Shown: positions 24,277 to 38,162 of the stretch, piece after piece
How the letters are laid out: each line of letters begins with the position of its first letter
Position numbering within the stretch: position 1 is the stretch's first letter
Source of the DNA: Isoptericola sp. BMS4
GTDB taxonomy: Bacteria; Actinomycetota; Actinomycetes; Actinomycetales; Cellulomonadaceae
Direction of reading: 5' to 3'
DNA length: 64,000 nt
Assembly (NCBI RefSeq): GCF_011634835.1
Contig: NZ_SIRP01000001.1
Location: 1,641,643 to 1,705,642 of the forward strand
Program-made: the position numbers and the translations under genes
Notes under the pieces: model-generated
The model's input: only the letters and a program-made list of their open reading frames with translations
Told to the model about the DNA's origin: nothing
Databases searched by the model: none

Positions 24277-25317
24277 GTGAACTCCGTGAACCACGAGCAC
24301 CTGGACCTGCCCGACGGCTGGCGGGCCACGACGCCCGACCTGGGCGACCTCACCCGGCTGTGCGAGCTGCGCGGTGCCGCGGCCGAGCCCTGGACCGGGT
24401 CGGCCGCCGTCGACGCCGACGCGGTCGCCGCCGAGGTCGCCGGGCCGATGTCGTGGACGCGGCGCCAGGTCGTCGCGCGGGACGCCGACGGCGTCGTCCG
24501 AGCCTGGTTCACCGTCAACGACCGTGCCGCGGGGCGTGTGGTGGTCTCCCTGGACGTCGACCGGGAGCTGCCCGACGCCGACGTGCTGGCCGCCGCGGGA
24601 CTGGCCTGGGCGGAGCGCCAGGGCCGCGAGCTCGCGGCGCAGCGCGGGCTCGCCGCCACCCAGCTCGACGCGGGCGCGTACGCGGGCGACGGGGTCCAGC
24701 GGCGCTGGCTGGCGGCGGCCGGCTACGTCCACGCGCGGTCGTGGCTGCAGATGAGCCGCCCCGTCCGGCCGGAGGAGGCCGACGCCGGCGTCCTGCCCGA
24801 CCCGCGACCCGGGGTCGTGGTGCGCCAGGTCGCCACCCACGACGACGGGTCTCCGGTGGCCGACGACCTGCAGACCGTGCACCGCGTGCTGGAATCGGCC
24901 TTCGAGGACCACTTCAACTCTTACCGGGAGAGCTTCTCCGAGTTTGTCGTGCGCCTGCGGGCGGACCCCGGGCACCGCTGGGACCACTGGTGGCTGGCGT
25001 TCGTCGCGGACGAGCAGGACCCGCAGGCCGCCCCGGTGCCCATGGGCGCGCTCGTGGGCTCCGCGCTCCCGTCCGGCGCTTCGGGCAAGGAGGGCAGCTA
25101 CGTCGAGTACCTCGGTGCCGACCGCCGCGCCCGCGGCCGGGGCGTGGCCACCGCCCTGCTCTTCGCCGTCGTCGCCGACGCCGCCGCGCGCGGGCGGGAC
25201 CGGGTGGGCCTCGAGGTCGACGCCGACAGCCCCACGGGGGCCGCCGCCCTGTACGAGCGGTGGGGCTGGCGCACGAAGTACACGACGGAGTCCTGGCACC
25301 GCGACACCTCCGTGTGA
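24277..25317 (+). CDS. GNAT family N-acetyltransferase (two-domain)
   Basis: 346 residues. The C-terminal half has the acetyl-CoA loop DRRARGRGVATALLFAV and the alpha4 region DADSPTGAAALYERWGW of GNAT enzymes. The N-terminal half has the same length and a degenerate fold (WFTVNDRAAGRVVVSLDVDREL, AAGLAWAERQG), so this looks like a tandem-GNAT protein in which only the C-terminal domain keeps the cofactor motif. The MshD-like layout is noted, but MshD-specific residues were not confirmed. CACAAT lies seven bases before GTG 24277. Confidence 0.85.
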   Translation: MNSVNHEHLDLPDGWRATTPDLGDLTRLCELRGAAAEPWTGSAAVDADAVAAEVAGPMSWTRRQVVARDADGVVRAWFTVNDRAAGRVVVSLDVDRELPDADVLAAAGLAWAERQGRELAAQRGLAATQLDAGAYAGDGVQRRWLAAAGYVHARSWLQMSRPVRPEEADAGVLPDPRPGVVVRQVATHDDGSPVADDLQTVHRVLESAFEDHFNSYRESFSEFVVRLRADPGHRWDHWWLAFVADEQDPQAAPVPMGALVGSALPSGASGKEGSYVEYLGADRRARGRGVATALLFAVVADAAARGRDRVGLEVDADSPTGAAALYERWGWRTKYTTESWHRDTSV

Positions 25318-25354
25318 CGGCGCGCTGTCGGTGGCCTGGCCTACCGTCGGCGCC

Positions 25355-26158
25355 ATGGCACGGTTCGGGCCGGACGACGACCTGCGGGGCGCCGAGTTCG
25401 TCGAGGCCGACATGACGGGCGCCCGGTTCCGCTTCGCCGACCTCTCCGGGGCGCGCGTCGACCAGAGCTACCTGCCGGGCGCCGTCATGCGCGGCGTCGA
25501 CCTCACGGGGGCGGACATCGACGGGGAGATCGACGGCCTGCGGGTCAACGGCGTCGAGGTGGCGCCGCTGGTCGCGGCCGAGCTGCATCGCCGCTACCCG
25601 GGCTGGGCCGACGCCCACTCGGACGTCCTGGCCGACCAGCGCGCCTCGTTCGAGGCGGCCCTGCGTACCTGGTCCGCCACCGTGGACAGGGTCGCGTCGA
25701 TGCCGCCGGGCACGGAAGGGGTGTCCGTCGACGGCGAGTGGTCGGTCGTCCGGACGCTGCGCCACCTGGTGTTCGCCGTCGACGGGTGGGTGCGGTTCGG
25801 CCTCCGAGGCATCGACGACGCCTTCAGCCCGATCGGGGTGCCGTTCTCCGAGTGGGACACGCACGCGCCGCGGGTAGGAGTCGACCTCCATGCGGACCCG
25901 TCGTGGGACGAGGTGCGCGCCGTCCATGCGGACCGGGTCGACCAGGTCCGCGCGCTGTACGACGTGCTGACCGAGGGGGAGTTCGCCGGGCCCGCGCGGC
26001 GCCTGCCGCCGTGGGAGCCGGCCGACCGGACGCTGCCCGTGTTCCGGTGCCTCGGCGTGATCGTGAACGAGCACTGGGCCCACCACCAGTTCGTCGAGCG
26101 CGACCTGGACCGGCTGGACGACGAGGCGGGCCGGAGCACCGGGCACCGGGACACGTAG
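25355..26158 (+). CDS. Pentapeptide-repeat / DinB-like protein
   Basis: 267 residues. N-terminus is a short right-handed beta-helix of pentapeptide repeats (LRGAEFVEADMTGARFRFADLSGARV). From about residue 90 it is a DinB-like four-helix bundle with metal-binding-type histidines (LRHLVFAVDGW, NEHWAHHQFVERDL). This fusion recurs in actinobacteria; activity is unknown. TACCGT lies seven bases before ATG 25355. Its TAG stop forms the first three bases of the ychF -10 element. Confidence 0.85.
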   Translation: MARFGPDDDLRGAEFVEADMTGARFRFADLSGARVDQSYLPGAVMRGVDLTGADIDGEIDGLRVNGVEVAPLVAAELHRRYPGWADAHSDVLADQRASFEAALRTWSATVDRVASMPPGTEGVSVDGEWSVVRTLRHLVFAVDGWVRFGLRGIDDAFSPIGVPFSEWDTHAPRVGVDLHADPSWDEVRAVHADRVDQVRALYDVLTEGEFAGPARRLPPWEPADRTLPVFRCLGVIVNEHWAHHQFVERDLDRLDDEAGRSTGHRDT

Positions 26159-26169
26159 ACTCTCCCGAC

Positions 26170-27255
26170 GTGGCACTCACCATCGGCATCGTCGGCCTGC
26201 CCAACGTCGGCAAGTCCACGCTCTTCAACGCACTGACCCGCAACCAGGTCCTGTCCGCGAACTACCCGTTCGCGACGATCGAGCCCAACGTCGGCGTCGT
26301 TCCCCTGCCGGACCCGCGCCTGGACACGCTCGCGGAGATCTTCTCCTCCGAGCGCACCCTGCCCGCCACGGTGTCGTTCGTCGACATCGCGGGCATCGTC
26401 AAGGGCGCCTCCGAGGGCGAGGGCCTCGGCAACAAGTTCCTCGCGAACATCCGCGAGGCCGACGCGATCTGCCAGGTGACCCGCGTGTTCGACGACGGCG
26501 ACGTCGTCCGCGTCGAGGGCTCGGTCGACGCCGAGGGCGACATCGAGACGATCTCCACCGAGCTCATCCTGGCCGACCTCCAGACGCTGGAGAAGGCGCT
26601 CCCGCGGATGGAGAAGGAGGTCAAGATTCGCAAGGGCGACGCGGCCCTGCTCGAGGCCGCGACGACCGCCCAGAAGATCCTCGAGTCCGGGACCACGCTC
26701 TTCCAGGGCGCAAAGGCCGAGGGGCTCGACCTCGCCGACGTGGCCTCGCTGCAGCTGCTCACGGCCAAGCCGTTCATCTACGTGTTCAACACCGACGACG
26801 CGGGCCTCGCCGACGCCGCGGCCCAGCAGCGCCTGCGCGACCTGGTCGCCCCCGCGGACGCCGTCTTCCTCGACGCCAAGTTCGAGTCCGAGCTGGTCGA
26901 GCTCGAGCCGGACGAGGCCAAGGAGATGCTCGCCGAGAGCGGGCAGACCGAGGCCGGGCTGGACCAGCTCGCCCGCGTCGGGTTCCACACCCTCGGCCTG
27001 CAGACCTACCTCACGGCCGGCCCGAAGGAGTCGCGCGCCTGGACGATCCGCAAGGGCTGGACCGCCCCGCAGGCCGCCGGCGTCATCCACACCGACTTCG
27101 AGCGCGGCTTCATCAAGGCCGAGGTCATCTCGTTCGACGACCTCGTCGAGGCCGGCTCCGTGCAGGCCGCACGCTCCGCCGGCAAGGCGCGTGTCGAGGG
27201 CAAGGACTACGTCATGCAGGACGGCGACGTGGTGGAGTTCCGGTTTAACGTCTAG
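26170..27255 (+). CDS. ychF: Redox-regulated ATPase/GTPase YchF
   Basis: 361-residue Obg-like P-loop protein of the YchF/OLA1 family, ribosome-associated and ATP-preferring. G1 LPNVGKSTLFNAL, switch II DIAGIVKGASEGEGLGNKFL, the NTDD region in place of a canonical NKxD motif, and the C-terminal TGS-like domain ending QDGDVVEFRFNV. GTG 26170, with TAGACT eight bases upstream. The last codons (CGG TTT AAC GTC TAG) use atypical bases; a second, GC-typical copy of the final 33 bases lies at 28750-28782. The end of the gene appears to have been replaced by an insertion. Confidence 0.96.
   Translation: MALTIGIVGLPNVGKSTLFNALTRNQVLSANYPFATIEPNVGVVPLPDPRLDTLAEIFSSERTLPATVSFVDIAGIVKGASEGEGLGNKFLANIREADAICQVTRVFDDGDVVRVEGSVDAEGDIETISTELILADLQTLEKALPRMEKEVKIRKGDAALLEAATTAQKILESGTTLFQGAKAEGLDLADVASLQLLTAKPFIYVFNTDDAGLADAAAQQRLRDLVAPADAVFLDAKFESELVELEPDEAKEMLAESGQTEAGLDQLARVGFHTLGLQTYLTAGPKESRAWTIRKGWTAPQAAGVIHTDFERGFIKAEVISFDDLVEAGSVQAARSAGKARVEGKDYVMQDGDVVEFRFNV
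27223..27255 (+). repeat. Left copy of ychF 3'-end duplication (attL-like)
   Basis: The last 33 bases of the functional ychF gene. They match 28750-28782 at 28 of 33 positions, including the uninterrupted core GTGGAGTTCCG. Both copies encode GDVVEFRFNV plus a stop (TAG here, TGA there). Confidence 0.8.
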
Positions 27256-27280
27256 CGTTATTGACGCTCCGCGTTATAGT
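27246..27280 (+). promoter_or_regulatory. higBA promoter and operator candidate
   Basis: TAACGTCTAGCGTTA (27246-27260) is an inverted repeat with 5-base arms that overlaps the ychF stop. AGCGT-TATTG-ACGCT (27254-27268) is a second, overlapping one. TATAGT (27275-27280) is a strong -10 ending eight bases before the higB GTG, and GCGTTAT is directly repeated at about 27255 and 27271. HigA-type autoregulation at these sites is inferred. Confidence 0.5.
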
Positions 27281-27288
27281 CTGGTCGC

Positions 27289-27570
27289 GTGATCAGATCG
27301 TTCGGAGACAAGGACACCGAACGGCTGTGGCGTCGTGAGCGGGTGCGCTCGCTGGATCCTCGGATCCAACGGGTCGCGCTGCGCAAGCTTCGTCAGGTGG
27401 GATCCGCGGAGTCGCTCGACGACCTCCGCGTCCCACCTGGGAACCGGCTCGAGGCGCTCAAGGGCGACCGGGCCGGCCAGCACAGCATCAGGATCAACGA
27501 CCAGTGGCGGATCTGCTTCGTGTGGACCGACGCAGGACCGGAGGAGGTGCAGATCGTTGACTACCACTGA
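27289..27570 (+). CDS. higB: HigB-like toxin (RelE/ParE superfamily)
   Basis: 93 residues. The sequence IRSFGDKDTERLWRRER, the middle DLRVPPGNRLEALKGDR and the end HSIRINDQWRICFVW match HigB-type mRNA interferases (plasmid maintenance killer family), which cut mRNA on the ribosome. GTG 27289 is leaderless-like after TATAGT. The antitoxin gene starts within its last codons (27557). Toxin-before-antitoxin order is typical for higBA. Base composition is less GC-rich than neighbours. Confidence 0.93.
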   Translation: MIRSFGDKDTERLWRRERVRSLDPRIQRVALRKLRQVGSAESLDDLRVPPGNRLEALKGDRAGQHSIRINDQWRICFVWTDAGPEEVQIVDYH

Positions 27571-27859
27571 CAAGATCGCGCCGATTCATCCCGGGGAGGT
27601 CCTCATGGAGGACTTCATCGAGGGTTTCGGCATCACGCAGAACAAGCTCGCCGTGTCGATCGGCGTCCCGCCGCGGCGGATCAACGAGATCGTGCACGGC
27701 AAGCGAGGTATCACCGCCGACACCGCGCTTCGGCTGGCGAAGTACTTCGGCACCTCGGCGGAGTTCTGGATCAACCTGCAGAGCCACTACGAGCTCGACC
27801 GTGCGGAGGACCTGGCCGGCCGGCAGATCGCCGCGATCACGCCGCTGAGGGTTGCGTGA
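27557..27859 (+). CDS. higA: HigA-like antitoxin (XRE family)
   Basis: 100 residues. Begins IAPIHPGEVLMEDFIEGFGIT, then an XRE helix-turn-helix (NKLAVSIGVPPRRINEIVHG) and the family signature ALRLAKYFGTSAEFWINLQ. It neutralises HigB and should bind the upstream promoter. TTG 27557 is chosen because GGAGG at 27543-27547 is nine bases upstream; this overlaps higB by 14 bases. Its TGA overlaps the GTG of the next gene (GTGA). Confidence 0.94.
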   Translation: MTTTDKIAPIHPGEVLMEDFIEGFGITQNKLAVSIGVPPRRINEIVHGKRGITADTALRLAKYFGTSAEFWINLQSHYELDRAEDLAGRQIAAITPLRVA

Positions 27860-28680
27860 CATCCACCATGGTCCTGCGCCCGGACGGCGTCTCGGTCGCT
27901 GTCAGCGATCTGGGCGGCGACGGGCCCCTGGTCGTGCTGCTTCACGGGTTGGCCGGGAGCTCGCGGGAGCTGCTGCCCACCGCGCGGGCACTCCAGGGGA
28001 ACCGGGTGCTCCTCGTGGATCAGCGGGGGCATGGTGAGAGTACTCGGTGTTCAGGTGATCTGAGTCGAGCGGCCTTCGTCGGCGACGTCATCGCCGTGCT
28101 GGAGGAATTTGCCCCGGGGCTAAGCGCGACCCTCATCGGTCAGTCGATGGGAGCACATACGGCGTTCCTCACGGCTTCAGCACGTCCGGATCTCGTCGAT
28201 GGTCTCGTCATGCTGGAAGGACACGTGGCGGGGAGCGACGATCCAGAGGACGCTGCGGGCCTCGGCAGGTACTTCGCATCCTGGCCGGTGCCTTTCGAGG
28301 ACGAGGCTGCCGCTCGCGACTTCCTCGGCGATGACGCGATCGTCGATGCCTGGCTGGCGGATCTCCAGATGGCGGATGGAGGGCTTGTTCCGCGCTTCGA
28401 CGCAGATGTCATGCGGCGCACGATCGAAGCTGTGCATGAACCGCGTTGGGTCGAGTGGGAGCGTCTGCGGGTTCCGACGCTCGCGGTATTCGCGAAGAAC
28501 GGGAGGTTCAGTGATGCCGACAAGGACGACTTGATCCGGCGCAGACCTCAGACGGACCGGATTGATCTCCACGGCGGTGGTCATGATGCCCACCTCGATG
28601 CTTTCGAGGAGTGGATCGACGTGCTCAGTCGCTGGCTGTCCCGTGAGCCGACCAGCGTTGCGCATGCTGATGGCGGCTGA
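27856..28680 (+). CDS. Alpha/beta hydrolase in the higBA operon
   Basis: 274-residue alpha/beta-hydrolase. The oxyanion region LLHGLAGSS, the nucleophile elbow GQSMGA (Ser at about 97) and the C-terminal GGGHDAH (His at about 243) are present; strand-6 VPTLAVFAKNGRFSDADK carries the acid region. The substrate is unknown. GTG 27856 overlaps the higA stop by four bases, so it is translated with the toxin-antitoxin pair; ATG 27868 is an alternative. Visibly lower GC than flanking genes (many third-position A/T), consistent with horizontal transfer of the 27256-28749 block. Confidence 0.87.
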   Translation: MTSTMVLRPDGVSVAVSDLGGDGPLVVLLHGLAGSSRELLPTARALQGNRVLLVDQRGHGESTRCSGDLSRAAFVGDVIAVLEEFAPGLSATLIGQSMGAHTAFLTASARPDLVDGLVMLEGHVAGSDDPEDAAGLGRYFASWPVPFEDEAAARDFLGDDAIVDAWLADLQMADGGLVPRFDADVMRRTIEAVHEPRWVEWERLRVPTLAVFAKNGRFSDADKDDLIRRRPQTDRIDLHGGGHDAHLDAFEEWIDVLSRWLSREPTSVAHADGG

Positions 28681-28749
28681 TGGCTTTCCGTATCGGAATT
28701 CACGCGAGTGGCGGCATGCCCGATGATCATGGAATGCGGTCCCAACCGT

Positions 28750-28782
28750 GGCGACGTCGTGGAGTTCCGCTTCAACGTCTGA
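28750..28782 (+). repeat. Right copy of ychF 3'-end duplication (displaced original end)
   Basis: Encodes GDVVEFRFNV and TGA with host-like codons (GTC, CGC, TTC) but has no upstream ychF sequence. Best explained as the original gene end pushed downstream by the higBA-hydrolase insertion. Confidence 0.8.
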
Positions 28783-28795
28783 CCGGCAGGATCCG

Positions 28796-28820
28796 GCGGG
28801 CGGTGACGCAGAACGCCCGC
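28796..28820. terminator. Putative original ychF terminator
   Basis: Hairpin with 7-bp arms GCGGGCG (28796-28802) and CGCCCGC (28814-28820), 14 bases after the displaced ychF stop. It is now about 1.5 kb from the working ychF gene. Confidence 0.45.
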
Positions 28821-28867
28821 ATGAATGTGCTCGCGGGACGGTGCTTCCTGGCCGCGACGGTCGCGTC

Positions 28868-29278
28868 CTATCCGCGGGCCTGGCCCGCGAACCGGCTTCG
28901 GGCCGCCTCGCCGGTCGGGGTGAAGAAGTTGACCAGGGTGCCGTCGGGGTCCCGGACGAGGAGCGACCGGTTGCCCCACGGCATGTCGGTGGGCTCGCTG
29001 ACGACGGTGTCCACGACGTCGCGCAGCCCCTCGCGCGTCGCGTCCATGTCCGCGACCAGGAAGTCGAGGGCGACGCTGCGGTTCGCGCGGGCCTCGGCGG
29101 CGCCTTCGCCGAGCAGCGGGACGGTCTCGGTGCTGGCGATGGCGAGGGTTCCGGCCGGCGTGCGCAGCTCGGCGAACAGGGGATGGAGGCGCGCGGCGCC
29201 GATTCCCGTGGCCTTCTCGTAGAACGCGACGAGCGCGTCGACGTCGTCGGTGAAGATCCGGGTGGCTGCCAGCTGCAT
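28868..29278 (-). CDS. VOC family protein (glyoxalase-like)
   Basis: 136 residues with the beta-alpha-beta-beta-beta VOC fold: TRIFTDDVDALVAFYEKATGI at the N-terminus and SLLVRDPDGTLVNFFTP at the C-terminus. Members include glyoxalases, dioxygenases and antibiotic-binding proteins; which applies is unknown. AGGAGG lies seven bases before ATG 29278. Divergent from the WYL regulator at 29394 with an inverted-repeat operator between. Confidence 0.9.
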   Translation of the reverse strand: MQLAATRIFTDDVDALVAFYEKATGIGAARLHPLFAELRTPAGTLAIASTETVPLLGEGAAEARANRSVALDFLVADMDATREGLRDVVDTVVSEPTDMPWGNRSLLVRDPDGTLVNFFTPTGEAARSRFAGQARG

Positions 29279-29351
29279 CGGGTACCTCCTGGTGGTGCGG
29301 TCGGGTGACGGCGTGGCCCGTGCGACGGCCACGGTCTCGACCGTAGGCGTC

Positions 29352-29376
29352 ATACCGGGCGAGAACTGTCCGGTAT
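29352..29376. promoter_or_regulatory. Palindromic operator between VOC and WYL genes
   Basis: ATACCGG (29352-29358) and CCGGTAT (29370-29376) are exact inverted repeats with an 11-base spacer, placed in the 115-base divergent promoter. The neighbouring WYL regulator is the likely binder. Confidence 0.65.
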
Positions 29377-29393
29377 CGGTGGAGGATGGGCCT

Positions 29394-30365
29394 GTGGCAG
29401 ACCCGACCGCGCGCACGCTGCAGCTCCTGGAGCTCCTGCAGTCCGCGCACCAGCGCACCGTGGCCGAGCTCGCCGAGCGCCTCGGCGTCGACGAGCGCAC
29501 GGTGCGCCGGGACGTCGCCCGGCTGGTCGCGCTCGGGGTCCGGGTCGTGACCGTCCGGGGTCGGTACGGCGGCTACCGGCTCGAGCCCGGGCGGCGCGCT
29601 CTTCCTCTCGTCTTCAGCGCCGAGGAGGCCCTCGCAGTCCTCCTCGGCCTCTCCCGCGCGCAGGTGGCGTCGGACGCGCCGGACGTGGCCGCGCAGACCG
29701 CCCTGGCCAAGGTCGTGCGAGCCGTGCGCCCCGAGGACGCGGGACGGTTCGACGCAGCCCTCGACGTGGTGGCACACAGGGCAGGACAGGAGCGCGCCGA
29801 GCCCGACCCCGGGGTGATGCTGACGCTGGCGGACGCGGTCGACCGGCGACGCAGCCTCGACCTGCGCTACCGGGACCGCGCGGGGGTCCCGTCGCGGCGG
29901 ACGGTCCACCCCTACGGGCTGGGGGCGCACGACGGCCGCTGGTATCTCGTCGCGCTCGACGCGGCGAGGGGCGAGGAACGCGCGTTCCGCATCGACCGGG
30001 TCAGGACCGCCCGCGCATTGCCGGGCACCTTCGACGCCCCACGACCCCTCGACGTCGAGGCCTGGCTCGTCGAGCACTTCGTCGGCGCGGACTACCGCTG
30101 GCGGGTGGTGCTCCGGGTCCGGGCGGCAGAGGACCACGTCCGCGCGCATCTCCCGGACACGGTCGCCCGGCTCGAGCGGCTCGAGGGTGTCACGGACCCG
30201 CCCTGGTACCGGGCCGAGATCCACGCGGACAGCCTCGACTGGCTCCCCGCCGTCATCGCCGCCCTCGGCTGCGAGGTGGTCATCGACCGTCCCGACGAGC
30301 TCCGCGACCAGGTCGCGGCCACCGCCGCGCGGATGCTCGACGCGGCGTCCCGCGTCCCCGGATGA
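29394..30365 (+). CDS. WYL domain-containing HTH regulator
   Basis: 323 residues. N-terminal HTH (RTVAELAERLGVDERTVRRDVARL), then a WYL domain (RRTVHPYGLGAHDGRWYLVALD, EERAFRIDRV) and a WCX C-terminal region (WYRAEIHADSLDWLPAVIAALG). WYL proteins sense ligands or nucleic acid and repress or activate nearby genes. GTG 29394 begins VADPTARTLQLLELL. It probably controls itself and the divergent VOC gene. Confidence 0.92.
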   Translation: MADPTARTLQLLELLQSAHQRTVAELAERLGVDERTVRRDVARLVALGVRVVTVRGRYGGYRLEPGRRALPLVFSAEEALAVLLGLSRAQVASDAPDVAAQTALAKVVRAVRPEDAGRFDAALDVVAHRAGQERAEPDPGVMLTLADAVDRRRSLDLRYRDRAGVPSRRTVHPYGLGAHDGRWYLVALDAARGEERAFRIDRVRTARALPGTFDAPRPLDVEAWLVEHFVGADYRWRVVLRVRAAEDHVRAHLPDTVARLERLEGVTDPPWYRAEIHADSLDWLPAVIAALGCEVVIDRPDELRDQVAATAARMLDAASRVPG

Positions 30366-30380
30366 GCCAGGCTCGTGCGG

Positions 30381-30725
30381 TCAGACGTGGGTGCCCACGT
30401 TGACCACCCGCCCGGACGAGTCGCGGTAGAAGAACCGCCGCACGCCCCAGTCCTCGGTGGACAGCGGGTGCACGATCTCGACGCCGGCGGTCACGGCCGC
30501 GTGGTGGGCGGCCTCGACGTCGTCGACGAAGACTGACAGGTCCGGGTTGACCGGTGCGCTCGCGTCCACCGTCATGAGTCCGATCTGGCGCCCGCCCTCG
30601 TCCGCGAGGAACGCGACCCAGCCGAGGTCCATCACGACCCGCATCCCGAGCACGGCCGTGTGCTCCCGCACTGCGGCGGCCACGTCGTCGACGGTCAGGA
30701 CGGGGGCGATCCTCTCGATCCGCAT
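30381..30725 (-). CDS. VOC family protein
   Basis: 114-residue single-domain VOC protein: RIERIAPVLTVDDVAAAVREH at the start and FFYRDSSGRVVNVGTHV at the end. It lacks a clear second metal-binding half. Convergent with the WYL gene, 15 bases between stops. Function unknown; possibly part of the same VOC/WYL locus. Confidence 0.88.
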   Translation of the reverse strand: MRIERIAPVLTVDDVAAAVREHTAVLGMRVVMDLGWVAFLADEGGRQIGLMTVDASAPVNPDLSVFVDDVEAAHHAAVTAGVEIVHPLSTEDWGVRRFFYRDSSGRVVNVGTHV

Positions 30726-30810
30726 GGGACGAGGGGATCACGCCACGAGGCCGCCGTCCACTGTGCCCCGGCCTGGCCGAGCTCCGTCGCCGCCTGGGCG
30801 GCGCCGGCAG

Positions 30811-31020
30811 GTGGCGGGCCCGTTCCGGCGGTGGTGGCACGAGCACCGGTTCGAGGCGGTCGAGGGAGGCACCCGCATGACGGACGTCGTGGAGCTCGTC
30901 TCGCCTGCCGGGGCTCTGGGCCGGATCGTCGACCGTCTGGTGCTGACGCGCTACATGGCGCGGCTGCTGGGGGCGCGCAACGAGTGGCTCGCCTCGGAAC
31001 TGACGCACCGCGCCGATTGA
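30811..31020 (+). pseudogene. SRPBCC (polyketide-cyclase-like) remnant
   Basis: Frame reading VAGPFRRWWHEHRFEAVEGG, then TRMTDVVELVSPAGALG and RYMARLLGARNEWLASEL to a TGA at 31018-31020. This is the C-terminal half of an SRPBCC ligand-binding protein (H-R-F, G-T-R-M-T-D, terminal long helix). The N-terminal half, which should precede it, is absent: upstream sequence up to the VOC gene start (30725) does not continue the fold. Probably a decayed gene. The rest of 30726-31094 shows no gene. Confidence 0.55.
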
Positions 31021-31107
31021 CCGTCATGTCCCACCTACACGGGACGCGACCGACACCGCAAGAACATGTCCGGGTGAAGTTCAGGTCGGGGACGTACCGT
31101 CGAGGTG

Positions 31108-31938
31108 ATGCTGCCCCAGCCTTCCGCGCCGTCGGCGCGTGCCGACGTCCGGTCGGCGGCGGTCCCTCAGGTGGTCCCCGGGCTCCCCGGCCGGTCCCTG
31201 TGCTCGCGCCTGACGTCGGCACCCGTGCTCGTGCTCGCGCTCGTCGGCGTGACGCTCCTCGCGGCGGGGCCGGTCCAGGCCGTGGACGACGCGGCGCACC
31301 GCCCGTGGGCGCGGCTGCTGACCCCGGGTGCCGTCCCGTTCATCCAGAACGTCCTCGACCCGATCGCCGGCCAGGCCGTCTGCCTGCCGGTGCTCGTGGC
31401 GGTGGCCGTGCCGCTCGCCTGGCGCCACCGCACCTGGCAGCCGATCTGGTGCGTGGCCGCCGCCGAGGCCGCCTTCTACGGCGGGGTGGGCCTGCTCAAG
31501 GTGGTGCTCGCCCGACCGGCGCCCGTCAGGGGCGACCCGGACCTCTTCGACGGCGGGCTGCAGACGCTCGGCTGGAGCGGCATCAGCTTCCCCTCGGGTC
31601 ACGCGGCCGAGGCCGTGCTGGTCTACGGCACCGCCGTCCACCTGGTGGCCCGCTGGACGTCGGCGTCGGACCGCGCGTTGCGGGTGCTGCGCTGGGGCGT
31701 CGGGGCCGTCACGGTCAACGCGGTCGCGGTCTCGTACTACCTGGGCTGGCACTGGATCACCGACCTCGTGGGCGGGGTTCTCGTCGGGGGTCTGCTGCTG
31801 CGGCTGCTGGTCGCGGCCGACCGTACCGACTGGGCCGCCGCGCACCGGCTGCGCCGGCGCGCGACGTCCGTCACCATGGCGGCATGGCGGCGACGCGCGA
31901 CGGTACGGGGAGGACCACGGGCCCGGCAGCGAGGCTGA
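31108..31938 (+). CDS. PAP2 family phosphatase (membrane)
   Basis: 276-residue membrane protein with the PAP2 three-part signature: KVVLARPAP (motif 1), SFPSGHAAE (motif 2, catalytic His) and YYLGWHWITDL (motif 3, second His and Asp). It probably removes phosphate from a lipid such as phosphatidic acid or undecaprenyl diphosphate. About six hydrophobic segments. ATG 31108 follows TACCGT by seven bases; GTG 31105 is one codon upstream. Arg-rich C-tail. Confidence 0.92.
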   Translation: MLPQPSAPSARADVRSAAVPQVVPGLPGRSLCSRLTSAPVLVLALVGVTLLAAGPVQAVDDAAHRPWARLLTPGAVPFIQNVLDPIAGQAVCLPVLVAVAVPLAWRHRTWQPIWCVAAAEAAFYGGVGLLKVVLARPAPVRGDPDLFDGGLQTLGWSGISFPSGHAAEAVLVYGTAVHLVARWTSASDRALRVLRWGVGAVTVNAVAVSYYLGWHWITDLVGGVLVGGLLLRLLVAADRTDWAAAHRLRRRATSVTMAAWRRRATVRGGPRARQRG

Positions 31939-31978
31939 GGCGCGGCACGGCGTCGCCCCCGGGCGGTACGGTCACCGG

Positions 31979-32323
31979 ATGACGTCGAGACGGCACACGC
32001 AGGCGTTCGTCGGCGGGCTGCTGGTGGGCAACTGCGCGCCCCACCTGGCCTCAGCGGTCGCCGGGCGGATCCACCTGACACCTCTGGCGGGCCGGGAGTC
32101 GGGCCCGCTCGTCAACCTGGTGTGGGGCGCGGTGAACCTCGCCGGCGGCCTCGCCCTCGTCCGGGCCGCGGCCGGCCCCGGCCGGCGGTGGGACGGCACG
32201 CTCGTGGCGTTCGAGGCGGGCGTGGCGACGTTCGCCGCGTGGATGTTCGCGTCGGAGGGGCTGACCCGGATCAACTCGGCCGTCCCGGAGGGCACACCGC
32301 CGGGCGGGGGAGCGGGCGCATGA
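31979..32323 (+). CDS. Small conserved membrane protein
   Basis: 114 residues, unrecognised function. Starts TSRRHTQAFVGGLLVGNCAPHLASAVAG and has three or four weak hydrophobic segments (LVNLVWGAVNLAGGLALVRAA, TLVAFEAGVATFAAWMF). The start resembles actinobacterial small membrane proteins of unknown role. ATG 31979 lies six bases after TACGGT. Its last 50 bases overlap the 3' end of the convergent hydrolase gene. Confidence 0.7.
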   Translation: MTSRRHTQAFVGGLLVGNCAPHLASAVAGRIHLTPLAGRESGPLVNLVWGAVNLAGGLALVRAAAGPGRRWDGTLVAFEAGVATFAAWMFASEGLTRINSAVPEGTPPGGGAGA

Positions 32324-33200
32324 CGACGCCCGCTCTGCCGAGCACGGGCCGGGAGTCCAGCCACGGCACGAGCAGCGGCAGCACGGCCTCGGCCCGCATC
32401 GCCGACAGGTGATCCCTGCCGGGCATGGTCTCGACGCGCCATCCGTGCGTCTCGAGCTCGCCGCGGTGGGAGCGCACCGCGCCGGCGATCACGACCTCGA
32501 CGTCGCCCCAGCCGGGGCCGTAGGTGATGTCGTCGTCCTCGCCGACGAACGCGAGCCGCGGCACGTCCAGGCCGAGGGAGGCGCGGTCGTCGAACCCCCG
32601 CAGCGACTCGTAGAGCGTGACGTACTGCCGGGTCTGCTCGGGGCTCGCCGTCATCTCCACGGAGTCCCAGTCGCCCGGCTCCGGGGCCGCGCCGGTGGCC
32701 GGCGGCGGGGCGTCGCGGTGCGCGACGGCGAGGTCGTGCGCCGCCCGGGTGACGGTGAGCATGGCCTCGTACGGGCCGCCGAGCGGCGGGTACCCGCCCA
32801 TCGCGAGCCCGGTGAGCCGGTCGGTGCGCAGCGCGAGCTGCAGGCCGGCGAGGGCCAGCCAGGAGTAGCCGTAGTACGCGAACCGCTCGGTCCCGGCCGC
32901 GTCGGCGACGGCGACCAGGTCGGCCGCGACGGCGTCGGCGGTCAGGGTCGTGGGCTTGGGGTGCTCCGCGAGGTGTCCCTCGTAGTCGGCGGCGAGCACC
33001 CGGTAGCCGGCCTCGACGAGCCCGGAGGCCAGGGCATGCCCGAGGTTCGGGTCGGCGCCCCAGGCTCGTGCGGCCTCGGCCTGCGGGCCGTCGACCAGGC
33101 GGGTGCTGACGGGTAGCAGGACGGTGGGCGCGTCGGCGTGCGGACCGTCGAGCACGGTCACGTCGAGGGCGGCACCGTCGTGGAGTCGGGCGGCGGGCAT
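32271..33200 (-). CDS. Alpha/beta fold hydrolase
   Basis: 309 residues. N-terminus LDGPHADAPTVLLPVSTR, a GYSWLALAG nucleophile-elbow region (GxSxxA rather than GxSxG) and a late GRDHLSA catalytic-His region. The fold is clear but the elbow is atypical. ATG 33200 is preceded by GGAGGT. Divergent from a TetR gene with a perfect operator between them, which suggests ligand-induced expression. Convergent overlap with 31979-32323. Confidence 0.82.
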   Translation of the reverse strand: MPAARLHDGAALDVTVLDGPHADAPTVLLPVSTRLVDGPQAEAARAWGADPNLGHALASGLVEAGYRVLAADYEGHLAEHPKPTTLTADAVAADLVAVADAAGTERFAYYGYSWLALAGLQLALRTDRLTGLAMGGYPPLGGPYEAMLTVTRAAHDLAVAHRDAPPPATGAAPEPGDWDSVEMTASPEQTRQYVTLYESLRGFDDRASLGLDVPRLAFVGEDDDITYGPGWGDVEVVIAGAVRSHRGELETHGWRVETMPGRDHLSAMRAEAVLPLLVPWLDSRPVLGRAGVVMRPLPRPAVCPPGRPS

Positions 33201-33231
33201 CGGTACCTCCGGAGGTAGGGCCGGATCAACT

Positions 33232-33246
33232 CTATACACTGTATAG
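33232..33246. promoter_or_regulatory. Perfect palindromic TetR operator
   Basis: CTATACA-C-TGTATAG is a perfect 15-bp palindrome in the 85-base gap between the divergent hydrolase and tetR genes. AT-rich and promoter-proximal to both, so binding would shut off both genes. Confidence 0.75.
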
Positions 33247-33285
33247 CAATACGATGTGACGGGCGGTGATGGAAGGATGCCGGGA

Positions 33286-34059
33286 ATGGACGAGGCGACG
33301 GGGTCGGCGGACGAGCGGGCCGTCGAGGCGCACGTGCGGCGCCTCTGGCGGCACCGCGGGGTCGCCGTCCCCCAGCCGCGCCGCGGCCCACGCCGCCGCC
33401 TCGATGTCGACGCCGTGCTCGACGCAGCCGTCGGGGTCGCGGACGCCGACGGGCTCGCCGCCGTGTCCACCCGCGCCGTCGCCGCCCGGCTCGGGCTCAG
33501 CGCCATGGCGCTGTACTCCTACGTGGGCACCAAGGACCAGCTGCTCGACCTCGTGGTGGACCACGCCTCCGCGCTCCCGGCCTGGGAGGACCCCGGTACG
33601 TCGGCCGCCGCGGACCTGACGGCATGGGCCGAGCGGCTCCTCGCCCTGCACGGCCGCCACCCCTGGCTGGCCGAACGCCCCTGGGCGGAGGCGCCGGGCG
33701 GCCCGCACCAGCAGGACTGGCTCGAACGCCTGCTCGAGATCCTGGAGCGGTGGGAGGTGCCGGGAGGATCGCGGGCCGCCGTCGTCACGACGCTGTACGC
33801 GGTCGTCGAGGCGGCGGCGCGGACCGCGGCCGCCCACGCCCGCACCTCGGGTGCGGACGCCGCCGCGTGGCTCGCCCGGGCCACCACCACGCGGCGCCTG
33901 GTGACCGACTACGCCGACCGCTACCCCCGCACCCTCGCGCTGCCGCAGCACGCCGACGACTGGCGCGCTGCCCCCGCCGCCGCGGTGCGGCACACCGTCG
34001 AGGTGCTCTGCCGCGGGCTGGGCCTGCCCGGCTGCGCCGCGCCGTCCGGCGCCGGTTAA
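33286..34059 (+). CDS. TetR/AcrR family regulator
   Basis: About 257 residues. HTH region STRAVAARLGLSAMALYSYVGTKDQLLDLVVDHA lies about residue 60, after a basic Arg-rich N-terminal arm (PRRGPRRRLD); the C-terminal part matches TetR_C-type ligand domains. ATG 33286 is preferred (GGAAGG nine bases upstream); ATG 33277 and GTG 33256 are alternatives. Regulates itself and probably the divergent hydrolase through the 33232-33246 palindrome. Confidence 0.9.
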   Translation: MDEATGSADERAVEAHVRRLWRHRGVAVPQPRRGPRRRLDVDAVLDAAVGVADADGLAAVSTRAVAARLGLSAMALYSYVGTKDQLLDLVVDHASALPAWEDPGTSAAADLTAWAERLLALHGRHPWLAERPWAEAPGGPHQQDWLERLLEILERWEVPGGSRAAVVTTLYAVVEAAARTAAAHARTSGADAAAWLARATTTRRLVTDYADRYPRTLALPQHADDWRAAPAAAVRHTVEVLCRGLGLPGCAAPSGAG

Positions 34060-34099
34060 TCGCTTGCCGCGACCTCGGCGCCGTGGAACGGTCGCGACC

Positions 34100-34909
34100 G
34101 TGACCCTGACCACCGATGCCGCCATGCTGCTGGCCGCGTACGACGACCAGCTGCGCACCGACGCCGAGACCCCGAGCGCGACGTCGGTCGTCCGGCGTGG
34201 GCCGTTGCGCCTGGTCACCTTCGCCGGCGGCCGCGGCTTCGTCACCTACGCCGGGCTCGACGGCGCCGACGCGGCGGCCGTGCGCGACCTCGTCGCCGAG
34301 GCGGTGGGGTACTACCGGTCCGACCCCGCGATCACCCGCGTGGAGTGGAAGACGCGCGGCCACGACCACGCCCCGGGCCTGCACGACGTCCTGGTCGAGC
34401 ACGGCTTCATCCCGGACGAGACCGAGTCGATCATGATCGGGGCGGCCGCGGCGCTGGCCGTCGACGTCCCGCTGCCCGACGGCGTCACGCTGCGCCGCGT
34501 CACGGCCGAGCGTGACGTGCGGGCGATGGCCGCCACGGCCGACGAGGTCTTCGGGGACGACCCCGCGACCTCGGGAACCGCGGAGGCGCTGCTGCGGCGC
34601 CAGGCGATCGACCCGCACCTGGAGCTGTGGGTCGCCGAGGCGGACGGCGTCGTCCTGAGCACGGGACGGCTCGAGCCGGTGCCCGGGACGCAGTTCGCCG
34701 GGCTGTGGGGCGGTGCCACGCGGCCCGAGTGTCGCGGGCGCGGCCTCTACCGCGCGCTCACCGCGGCCCGCGCCCGCGCGGCGCTCGCTGCCGGGGCGAC
34801 CTACCTGCACAGCGACTCCACCGAGTTCTCGCGCCCCATCCTGGAACGGTCGGGCCTGCTCAGGGTCTCGACCACGACCCCGTACCGCTGGGTGCGGCCG
34901 GAGAGCTGA
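34100..34909 (+). CDS. GNAT family N-acetyltransferase
   Basis: 269 residues with a full GNAT core in the C-terminal half: LSTGRLEPVPGTQFAGLWGGATRPECRGRGLYRALTAARARAAL contains the acetyl-CoA R/Q-x-x-G-x-G/A loop, and the terminal SDSTEFSRPILERSGL matches alpha4/beta7. Substrate unknown. GTG 34100. It is followed after two bases by the next gene, so the two form an operon. Confidence 0.9.
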   Translation: MTLTTDAAMLLAAYDDQLRTDAETPSATSVVRRGPLRLVTFAGGRGFVTYAGLDGADAAAVRDLVAEAVGYYRSDPAITRVEWKTRGHDHAPGLHDVLVEHGFIPDETESIMIGAAAALAVDVPLPDGVTLRRVTAERDVRAMAATADEVFGDDPATSGTAEALLRRQAIDPHLELWVAEADGVVLSTGRLEPVPGTQFAGLWGGATRPECRGRGLYRALTAARARAALAAGATYLHSDSTEFSRPILERSGLLRVSTTTPYRWVRPES

Positions 34910-34911
34910 CG

Positions 34912-35118
34912 ATGAGCCTCGAGGAGCACCCCTTCGACTACCGGGTCACGAAGGACGGCAAGGTCCTGGTGAGCCGCGGCGGCCGGCTCGTGGTCACGGT
35001 CGCCGGCGCCCGCGCGGCCCGGCTGATCCCCCTGCTCGGCCACGACGACGAGACGGACCAGCAGCTGCTGGCGCGGGCCACGGGGAACTACCGGCACGGC
35101 AACGAGCGCAGGCGCTAG
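34912..35118 (+). CDS. Small conserved protein of unknown function
   Basis: 68 residues: EEHPFDYRVTKDGKVLVSRGGR, VVTVAGARAARLI and ATGNYRHGNERR. The last part resembles a conserved C-terminus in small uncharacterised actinobacterial proteins. No signal peptide or membrane helix. It begins two bases after the GNAT stop, so is probably co-transcribed. Confidence 0.75.
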   Translation: MSLEEHPFDYRVTKDGKVLVSRGGRLVVTVAGARAARLIPLLGHDDETDQQLLARATGNYRHGNERRR

Positions 35119-35197
35119 TCTTCGTGGTCGGTCCGGCGCTCAGACGCTGCGCGTCCCCGCGGCACGCGCCGGAGCCGCGCGGACGAGGAGGTGGCCG

Positions 35198-38162
35198 ATG
35201 AGTCGGACCCGGCTGCTCGCCCGGCGCGGGGCGGCCCACGGCGGCCTGCTCCTGCTGGTGCTCCTCCTGGTCGCGGCGATGACGGCGGCCCTGGGCACCA
35301 CCGTCGGATCGGTCCGCGCGGCCGAGCGCGAGATCGCCCGGGAGTCCCTCGCCGGGCACGGAACCCCCGCGAACCTCGTGGTGCGGACCCGGTTGCGCGC
35401 CGACGCGGCCGAGGTGCAGGACACGGCCCTGCGCGATGTCGTGCACCGCACCTTCGGTGCCGTGCCGGTCCGCGTCGACCGGGCCGTGGTGGCCGACGAG
35501 GGGTCGGACGACCCGTTCGTCCGCTGGACCCTGACCCCGGACGTCGCGTCCGCCGAGCCCGGGGACCTGGGGGCGCTCGCGTCGGCGGCGGGGCGCGTGC
35601 TGCCGGTGCTGCGCGACGACGAGGTGGCCACCGAGCGCGGCGTGGTGGTCACCGGCGACCTCGCCGAGCGCGCCGCGGCGGCCGCCGAGGCCGTGCGTGC
35701 GGCCTCGGCGGTGACGCTCGTCCCGCTGCTGCTCCTCGCGTTCGTGGGCGTCGTCGTCCTCACGCAGGTGGCCCGGCTGCTGGCGGCGACCCGTGAGACG
35801 GAGGTGCGCCTCCTCGCCGCGCGCGGGGCGTCCGCTGCCCAGGTGGCCGGGGCGGCCGCCGTGGAGGCCGTCCTGCTCGCCGGGGCGGGCGCGGGCCTGG
35901 GCTCCGGAGCCGCCGTCGCCTGGCTGGCCCTGCGCGGGGTCGGGCCCGGCGGCGCCGGGGGCGCCGTCGCCGTGACCGCCGCGACCGTGGCGGTCGCCTC
36001 CGCCGTCGTGCTGGGATCGGTCGCCGGGCTGCAGGGCCACAGGGTCGTGGCCGGGCGCGAGCGGTCCGACGCCGGGCGCGGCCGGCGCGCGGCCGCGGCC
36101 GGCACGGTGGTGGTCGCCGTCGCGGCGGCGACCGTCACCCTGTGGATGCTGCGCAGGCACGGCTCGCCGCTGGTGCCGACGCCCGACGGCGGGCAGCCCG
36201 ACCTGGTCGCGGGGGCGGCTCCCGCGCTCGCCCTCGTGGCGGTGGCCGCGCTCGCGCTGGCGATGCTCGGCCCGCTCACCCGCGGGTGGGCGGCGCTGTC
36301 GGCGCGCGGACGCGGTGCGGTGGGCGTGCTGGTGGCCCGGCAGGTGGCGCGGCGACTGGCCGGCGTGGCCGTGCCGGTGGTGCTCCTCGTGCTCGCGGGC
36401 GGCGCGGCCGTGCTCGCCGGGGCATACGCCGGGACGGCGCAGCGGATGCAGGCGGACGCCGCCCAGCTCGCCCACGGCACCGACGTGCGGGTCGTGGCGT
36501 CGGACGGGACGGACGTCACGGCCGACGCCGCGAGCCGCGGCGCGGCGGCCGCTCCCGCGCTCGTGGCCGAGGGGTCGGCGGGCGACGCGCCGGCCACGCT
36601 CGTGGCCCTGCCGCCCGGGGCGGTCACCGACGTCGTCCGCGCCCCGGCGAGCACGGTGGACCCCGTCGTCCTCGCCCACGCGCTCGACGGCGAGGACCCG
36701 TTCGGCGGCGCTCCCGTGCTGCCCGGCGCGACGGACTCCCTGGTGGTCACCGTGTCGGCGCGGGTGGCGGTCGCCGGCCTCGCCGACACGGGGGGCCGGC
36801 CAGGGGTCCGATCCAGGCGCCGAGGCCGGCACGGGGGCGTGGGCAGGGCCGGCGTCGTGGCCCGAGCTGCTGGCCCGGGCCGGGGCGTCGGACCGGACGC
36901 GCAGCACCCTGGAACGGCTCGAGAGCTCGGGCGTCAGCCTGTGGCTGTGGCTCGCGGACGCCGACGGGCGGCTCGCGCGGGTCGAGGTGGGGCGCCTCGA
37001 CTACGACCTGGACGGCGACGGCGACGGCACCCACCCGATCGGGCCGTCAGGGCGCCGCCACGAGCTCGTGGTCGACGTGCCCGACCGGCTGCGGGGCGAC
37101 CTGCGGCTGGTCGGCCTCGACGTGCTCGCCGGCGGCGGCGTCCCGTGGGACACCCGCGTGGGCGTGACCGTCGACGCGGTCAGGGCGTCCGGGGACCCCG
37201 CGGGCCGGGTCACGGACCCGGCCGAGACCGCCTGGGCTCCCGTCGGCCCGGACACCCGGACGGCCACCGTGCCCGGCGAGGGACCCGGCGACGAGCCGGC
37301 CGGCCTGGGGGCCGTCCTGGCCCCCGCCGACCGGGAGACGACCCCGTACCGGGTCCTCGCGCGAGGCGTGGGGGAGGCGCCGGCGCGCGCCGTCGTCACG
37401 ACCTCGCTGGCCGACCGGCTCGATCTGGGGCCAGGGGACCGCGTCGAGCTGCCGGTCGGCCGGACGAGCGTGCCCGTCGAGGTGACGGGGGTCGTGGCGG
37501 AGGTGCCGGGTGCGGGTCGCCCGGACGCGGCGCTCGCCGACCTCGCGGGGGTGGAGGCCGGCCTGGTCGCCCGGGTCTCGGGCCCGCCGCAGCCGGCCGA
37601 GACGTGGGTCGGCATCGACGGCGCGGGCAGCACCGCCGCCGTCGCGCGGGCGCTGCGCGCCGAGGTTCCGTCGGACGGCACGGTGACGGTCACGACGAGG
37701 CCCGACGTGGCACCCGCCGTCGACGCCGCGGCGCCGGTCCGTGCCGCCTTCGGCGTCGCGGCGGCCGGCGCCGCGCTGCTCGCGGTCGTCGGGCTGCTGG
37801 CCGTCGCGTCCGCCGCGCTGCGGGCACGGCGCCCGGAGGTCGCGGTGCTGCGCGCGGTGGGGGTGCCGCCCCGCGTCCAGGGCCGGCTGCGGGCCGCGGA
37901 GCAGGCGTGGGTCGCGGTCGTCTCGGTCCTGCTCGGCGCGGCCGCGGGCGCCGCGGCCGCGGCCCTGACCGTGCCGGGCCTCGCCGGCGCGGCGCTGGTC
38001 GGCACCGGCGTCGAGCCGGTCCCGGTGCTCACCCTCGCCGCGCGGGACACCGCCGTTCCCCTGGCGACACTGCTGCTGGGGGTGGTAGCCGTGCTGGCGG
38101 TGACGTACGCCCGCGTCGTCGCGCAGGCGCGCGACGGCTCCTACCGCGAGGAGGTGCGGTGA
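35198..38162 (+). pseudogene. FtsX-like ABC permease with a one-base frameshift
   Basis: About 988 codons of a MacB/FtsX-type permease: N-terminal TM (GLLLLVLLLVAAMTAAL), periplasmic domain, FtsX TM blocks near residues 180 and 360-410, a second extracellular part, and a final FtsX TM block. The frame is broken at a 6-G run (36790-36795). Removing one G joins the upstream frame to the downstream one (ADTGAGQGSDPGAEAGTGAW) with no loss of sense. It could be a sequencing error or a phase-variable or dead gene. GAGGAGG precedes ATG 35198. The stop overlaps the next start (TGATG). Confidence 0.75.

Follow-up and report, generated by a model that had tools for sequence, protein, structure and literature searches.

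Recombinase-mediated insertion at gene ends, arrays of staphylococcal cassette chromosome (SCC) elements, and integrons are already known, and an SCC element restores the gene end at which it inserts. Enterococcus cassette chromosome (ECC) elements are described as 21–78 kb long, with direct-repeat sites and with inverted repeats at the distal site and in the circle; 16 of 32 ECCs have more than one distal site (PMC6222049). Serine integrases are reported to recombine attP with attB and not other pairings (PMC3783163). At the locus considered here, in a 64-kb stretch of the Isoptericola sp. BMS4 genome (the window, i.e., the whole stretch of DNA that was analyzed; positions count from its first base), the interval directly behind ychF is probably a mobile cassette, inserted at the 3′ end of this gene by a large serine recombinase (LSR) acting in trans, with regeneration of the insertion site. 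Packets of DNA standing in rows behind ychF suggest a little-noticed cassette system in actinobacteria. In searches of the open-access literature, ychF was found described neither as a cassette site nor, for actinobacteria, as the seat of a cassette array system that LSR islands match. A pneumococcal prophage is reported near ychF, but upstream of the gene, at the promoter (PMC6375853), and hence at a different site.

The duplicated ychF tail and the empty site

The ychF gene (26170..27255, plus strand; TIGR00092, 423 bits) encodes the redox-regulated ATPase YchF. Its tail at 27223–27255 is repeated at 28750–28782 with identity at 28 of 33 bases, and both copies encode GDVVEFRFNV and a stop, just as a sequence-only reading of the window had claimed. 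The pattern of tail codons has exactly two matches in the 4.4-Mb host genome, namely, the two window copies. A 50-base site profile derived from genomes other than the host, applied to every window position on both strands, scores 53 at 27227 and 42 at 28754, the next best score being −9. A chance repeat is ruled out, as these two sites alone score above −9 in the 64 kb.

The proximal site (27207..27255, plus strand; position 0 at 27227) combines the host left half (B) with what the repeat comparison and the profile scores identify as the cassette copy of the ychF tail (B′). The distal site (28733..28782, plus strand; position 0 at 28754), assigned by profile scores, joins the cassette left arm (P, ending in ...AACCGTGGCG) to the displaced native tail (B′). 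The crossover dinucleotide is predicted to be GT, at site positions 5–6 (27232..27233 in the proximal copy and 28759..28760 in the distal one, both on the plus strand), since the P motif and the P′ motif of LSR elements (see below) are symmetric about position 5.5. The cassette, as delimited by the site-to-site distance and an empty-site relative, spans 1,527 bp (27232..28758, plus strand), and the final codons of ychF in the window would derive from it. The window carries one cassette only.

The cassette contains, all on the plus strand, the higB toxin gene (27289..27570; PF05015, E = 3.8e-17), the higA antitoxin gene with a TTG start overlapping higB (27560..27859; TIGR02607, 108 bits against a cut-off of 47.7), and an alpha/beta hydrolase gene (27868..28680; PF00561, E = 3.9e-16). 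The GC content in 500-bp bins is 64–67% at 27000–28999, compared to 70–77% at 25000–26999 and 73–82% at 29000–35999; the domain matches and these bins agree with the earlier description of higB, higA, and a hydrolase of lower GC between the tail copies. Inspected by eye, the list of open reading frames shows no integrase-like gene between the copies, again in line with that description, and no recombinase within 27232–28758. A simple scan did not recover the terminator hairpin that had been placed just behind the distal copy. In L230 and L233, which are from other families, ychF and a site likewise enclose the HigBA–hydrolase unit; this favors the earlier suggestion of a small cassette mobilized in trans; its other suggestion, a stripped island, fits less well.

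In the genus, 17 other genomes were searched, 15 of which have the full ychF end, with stretches reaching 1.5 to 8 kb behind ychF; the sequence there varies from genome to genome. A search for the window flank in 221 genomes of the family returned eight loci, one of them the window's own region, and ychF is present in the stretch of G782 alone. In this genome, which belongs to another genus of the same family, the region homologous to 28907 onward begins 34 bp after the ychF stop, and in the window the shared region begins 124 bp after 28782 (at 28907); 1,073 of 1,476 aligned columns are identical (73%). The first gene of the flank (28868..29278, minus strand; start codon picked by eye), which we take to be VOC-like, has its homologous stretch directly behind ychF in G782, and the next flank gene is presumably of the WYL type. 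As ychF of G782 is followed directly by the window flank, ychF–VOC–WYL is plausibly the older gene order, and the window plausibly has an insertion at the ychF end. The empty-site relative sought by the sequence-only reading is thus available, though from another genus, and the same core at both ends of other cargo is seen in relatives, often several times in a row. Both observations support its proposal of site-specific integration into the ychF 3′ end.

Cassette arrays and their common site

At least one strict site is found in 280 of the 396 genomes of the order, and at least two in 43 (a hand count that includes the host); the reversed-pattern control of this order-wide search gave 0 among the matches listed. 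The stretches examined further comprise 60 genome stretches, most with two or more hits and some from genus relatives, and two database records, 62 in total. At least two sites, with up to three mismatches allowed, occur in 45 of the 62, all oriented like ychF where ychF is present (12 stretches lack it and were oriented by the sites themselves), and no opposite-strand site is seen in the 62 stretches (40 + 22 loci). Examples of arrays come from Demequina mangrovi, D. gelatinilytica, Arthrobacter castelli, and Kocuria marina; the longest array (L216) has ten sites in about 8 kb. The 108 inter-site intervals, counted by script between neighboring sites 150–8000 bp apart with shorter and longer ones dropped, have a median length of 1,597 bp and range from 354 to 7,093 bp.

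In BLASTN comparisons between arrays (207 rows, restricted to matches that have one or both ends close to a site; not all matches end at sites), units start at or within a few bases of one site and end at the next. Common units occupy different array positions, in different neighborhoods; e.g., the unit standing first behind ychF in L050 matches the second one in L055 (D. mangrovi) with 96.4% identity over 1,895 bp, from offset 0 to offset 28.

The 112 non-ychF sites combine a non-coding left arm, cAGAnGTTnnTcGGcTACGGA, with a right arm encoding VEFRFNV and a stop, in which variation is mainly at third codon positions. The left arm carries AGAnGTT at −20, matching on average 4.40 of 6 informative bases, with 2.50 at the next best offset, on the same 112 sites from which the motif was taken. 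Several subtypes of the left arm exist; the window arm (...AACCGTGGCG) looks, by eye, like those of L147, L148, L160, and L237. G occupies site position 4 in 91% of P sites and in 62% of ychF sites, as expected if this position travels with the left arm. The common site contains imperfect outer and inner inverted repeats.

These repeats, the arrays, the small cassettes, and the toxin–antitoxin and defense-like cargo would all suit a classical integron, with attC-like folded sites and an IntI-type integrase. Here, though, no tyrosine recombinase was seen within the arrays or adjoining them, and the outer boxes have the reverse of the attC polarity. Folded as a single strand, the common site does not stand out (z = −1.46 for one strand and −1.17 for the other), and on these values attC-like hairpin folding was rejected. 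An integron of this kind is hardly credible.

Longer second copies of the ychF 3′ region are present within some arrays (L146/L147, L155, L156, L229). In L146, L155, and L156, matches run leftward from the distal site for some 228 bp or more, as if array pieces had been imported whole by homologous recombination.

Partial duplication and homologous recombination at ychF, followed by decay, would involve no site-specific enzyme. The longer second copies (L146, L155, L156, L229) favor this explanation, as does cargo lacking a second site in some relatives. At most sites, however, the left arm is non-coding, conserved, and not ychF, and the same units recur in different neighborhoods with site ends of about 50 bp, which is short for homologous recombination; such an origin seems very unlikely to us.

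A HigB or HigA homologue is present in 25 of 108 units. When bases are counted from site position 0, HigB begins at base 63 in the window unit, and it does so in 22 of the other 24 units that match HigB. Cargo was sampled non-randomly, as 112 proteins chosen by eye from the listed ones among 265 non-redundant candidates, many of which are probably not real genes; it yielded Pfam matches to GNAT, SDR, TetR, MFS, PIN, HigB, and HepT proteins and PADLOC matches to OLD, AbiD, GajA-like, and AriA-like proteins.

The 50-bp consensus retrieved one and three records from plasmid and phage collections, respectively, none of them covering 80% of the query. One of these, a Nocardia farcinica NCTC11134 record labelled plasmid 2 (L237), has a four-site array in 3.3 kb and HigBA, and no ychF was found in the 8 kb examined. 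A recurrent element starting with AAAAGnGCGTCTGACCAGG or similar stands directly after a site with AT-rich codons (TTTAATGTCTAA or similar) in L094, L106, L099, L152, and L224; its protein in L106 is presumably an insertion-sequence-like transposase. In L012 (G017), a short motif like TGCGCTACnTCG is repeated several times directly after the ychF stop.

Recombinases at ychF and the proposed mode of insertion

A Schaalia genome has a broken LSR gene directly behind a ychF ending in FRTGLTSKK. With the N-terminal piece of this LSR as a query, matches were obtained in 63 of the 396 genomes of the order, the best 12 at 54–94% identity. LSRs of this kind are associated with the site: 8 of the 12 that are at least 54% identical adjoin ychF or its tail, compared to 0 of the next 18 (Fisher p = 8e-5). 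The reach of this comparison is uneven: most of the nearer LSRs were seen in 10–20 kb of sequence, most of the other 18 with about 1.5 kb to each side, and limiting both sets to 1.5 kb gives 6 of 12 and 0 of 18. All seven ychF ends examined that have such an LSR near read B.P′, with a swapped C-terminus (e.g., FRTGLTSKK). The islands of L238, L239, L273, L274, L281, L282, and L285 swap the conserved YchF C-terminus (FRFNV) for FRTGLTSKK, FRHGGTSGTGKK, etc.

The LSR elements also share the motifs of the cassette sites. Six P.B′ sites of LSR elements were collected, four adjoining an LSR and the other two closing an LSR island on its far side; in the cassette register, AGAnGTT at −20 scores 22 of 36, and none of 20,000 shuffles was as good. 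The P′ motif AACnTCT at +25 scores 44 of 54 over nine halves, again with none of 20,000 shuffles as good; two of these nine have no LSR in the stretch seen. The B′ half has the mirrored motif at +20, i.e., the P′ motif lies 5 bp further out; visual inspection of two of these halves, or of close relatives of them, had first drawn attention to this shift. In one serine integrase, the zinc-domain motif is reported to lie 5 bp further inward in attB than in attP (PMC3783163), and the positions of P′ at +25 and B′ at +20 fit this rule. A different ychF ending, EWRFST/EWRFSL, is seen in L086 and L105; the AACATCT-like motif found there lies even further out and may belong to the P′ half of yet another recombinase type.

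In G295 and G285, the cassette ends with the truncated, decayed start of an LSR gene by the P arm. This start is 77–100% identical in nine genomes, where all open frames are shorter than 380 aa. The nearest intact relative found, L263 (G313), is 77% identical and shares a branch (support 93/78) with two ychF-associated LSRs. An associated LSR scores 73 bits against CcrB, with a cut-off of 900.

A tyrosine recombinase, either a phage integrase or the host XerC/XerD, might move the cassettes instead, the tail repeat then being an ordinary tyrosine-integrase core. Such enzymes do occur here: a tyrosine integrase stands beside ychF in four of 80 genome_contigs loci (L036, L072, L075, L109), in two IMG/VR contigs (L206, L207) the ychF tail stands beside a 250-aa protein matching a tyrosine-integrase profile (E = 2e-9), and PF00589 matches only two proteins in each of such array genomes as G156 and G254, which are probably XerC and XerD. 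None of the 16 genomes searched, however, has PF00589 inside an array. A custom tyrosine-integrase profile gave no match in the array stretches; it was built from 20 stretches, some with frames that look wrong, and did detect integrases elsewhere. By eye, the phage sites of L206 and L207 lack the AGAnGTT arm; the P, P′, and B′ motifs are spaced in agreement with the serine-integrase rule; and the decayed gene abutting the cassette arm is that of an LSR. Movement of the cassettes by a tyrosine recombinase is unlikely in our view. Counting the phage and island tyrosine integrases of L206, L207, L036, L072, L075, and L109, three kinds of elements are found at this one gene end.

Insertion by an LSR in trans could proceed as follows. 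The cassette begins with its own ychF 3′ end (half-site B′) and ends with the recombinase half-site P, and its putative circle would bear a P.B′ site. An LSR supplied in trans would recombine this circle with the native ychF site, B.B′, at GT. The product would have the cassette directly behind ychF, a B.B′ gene end made from cassette DNA, and the old end moved to the far side as P.B′. As the ychF site would be restored to B.B′, further cassettes could enter and arrays would build up. HigBA at the cassette head may plausibly stabilize the cassette by addiction.

Several observations weigh against this mode of insertion. B.B′ with P.B′ is a non-canonical pair for a serine integrase, and the host genome has no match to PF00239; an outside enzyme and relaxed or Ccr-like pairing therefore must be assumed. 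Crude motif scans found no intact LSR inside the arrays, only the truncated relic. For four of the 12 nearer LSRs, ychF is absent in about 5 kb on either side, and the ychF-associated LSRs do not form one clade in the LSR tree, where five changes are needed. The window arm is weak by the common profile: with the arm taken alone, 6,674 of 127,958 window positions score equal or better, and 9 of the 112 P sites score lower. The two window copies differ at site position 4, with G in the proximal one and C in the distal one, and most close relatives have C at position 4 of the ychF site; a crossover slightly further left would also fit the window pattern. The window flank (28783–30806) stands behind ychF in none of the 15 genus genomes with a full ychF end. 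The sequence-only reading had named higBA–hydrolase cargo with no duplicated tail as evidence against itself, and partial forms of it were seen: in G003, a hydrolase 73% identical to that of the window stands directly behind ychF, with no second site detected in about 8 kb; G013 has a HigBA-like stretch with none detected in about 8 kb, and Cryobacterium L062 has HigBA with none detected in 5 kb. Decay or deletion of one end would explain these single-site loci. Finally, none of 394 genomes drawn from the whole class has the common P-arm subtype (0 of 394), and, with 40 of these from the same order, the common-subtype pattern is strict; spread of the cassettes beyond the order is poorly supported, with Nocardia farcinica (L237) as the exception.

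Relation to described systems

More broadly, and as a tentative proposal, the loci could form an integron-like cassette system of actinobacteria, run by LSRs and anchored on a housekeeping gene, with attR-type P.B′ cassettes and an enzyme accepting B.B′ with P.B′. Since the cassette carries the P.B′ site and the last codons of ychF, each insertion would regenerate the chromosomal site, and the arrays could keep growing. If true, cassette chromosomes anchored on a gene would extend to a new gene and to another phylum, and serine-integrase islands would be linked to integron-like accretion. The system would place a defined recombination site beside a universal gene in many actinobacteria, offer a source of new LSRs with natural att sites, and make the ychF end a hotspot for a systematic search of toxin–antitoxin and anti-phage genes; it also raises the question of repeated LSR use of one gene end.

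Chromosomal integrons and attC clusters lacking an integrase similarly have ordered arrays of small cassettes in the same orientation, with toxin–antitoxin genes, and same-orientation cassettes with common sites are indeed seen in the relatives. The cassettes described here differ in that they are anchored on codons of a housekeeping gene and lack the attC polarity, and no IntI was found beside the arrays.

Serine-integrase islands and prophages are matched by the LSR islands at ychF, which show attL = B.P′, the 5-bp shift of the motif, and, in the cases where it was seen, attR = P.B′. The cassettes, by contrast, have B.B′ at ychF, do not use up the site, and carry no intact integrase. In the window, accordingly, the element contains no LSR and the proximal site is B.B′ (VEFRFNV) rather than an attL of the B.P′ form.

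SCC and ECC, inserted at rlmH by CcrAB, share with the ychF loci the 3′ region of a conserved gene as the target, direct-repeat sites of about 50 bp, and LSRs. The cassettes described here differ in their target, ychF instead of rlmH, in the phylum, in their units of about 1.6 kb (median), mostly lacking a recombinase, and in having up to ten sites; by eye, the window cassette has no recombinase such as ccrA/ccrB or ccrC, and the associated LSR is only distantly Ccr-like. Direct-repeat sites, a gene end restored by the element, and distal inverted repeats are all found in the system, the window arm fitting weakly, and the proposed recombination of a P.B′ circle with the B.B′ site of ychF resembles the topology of ECC.

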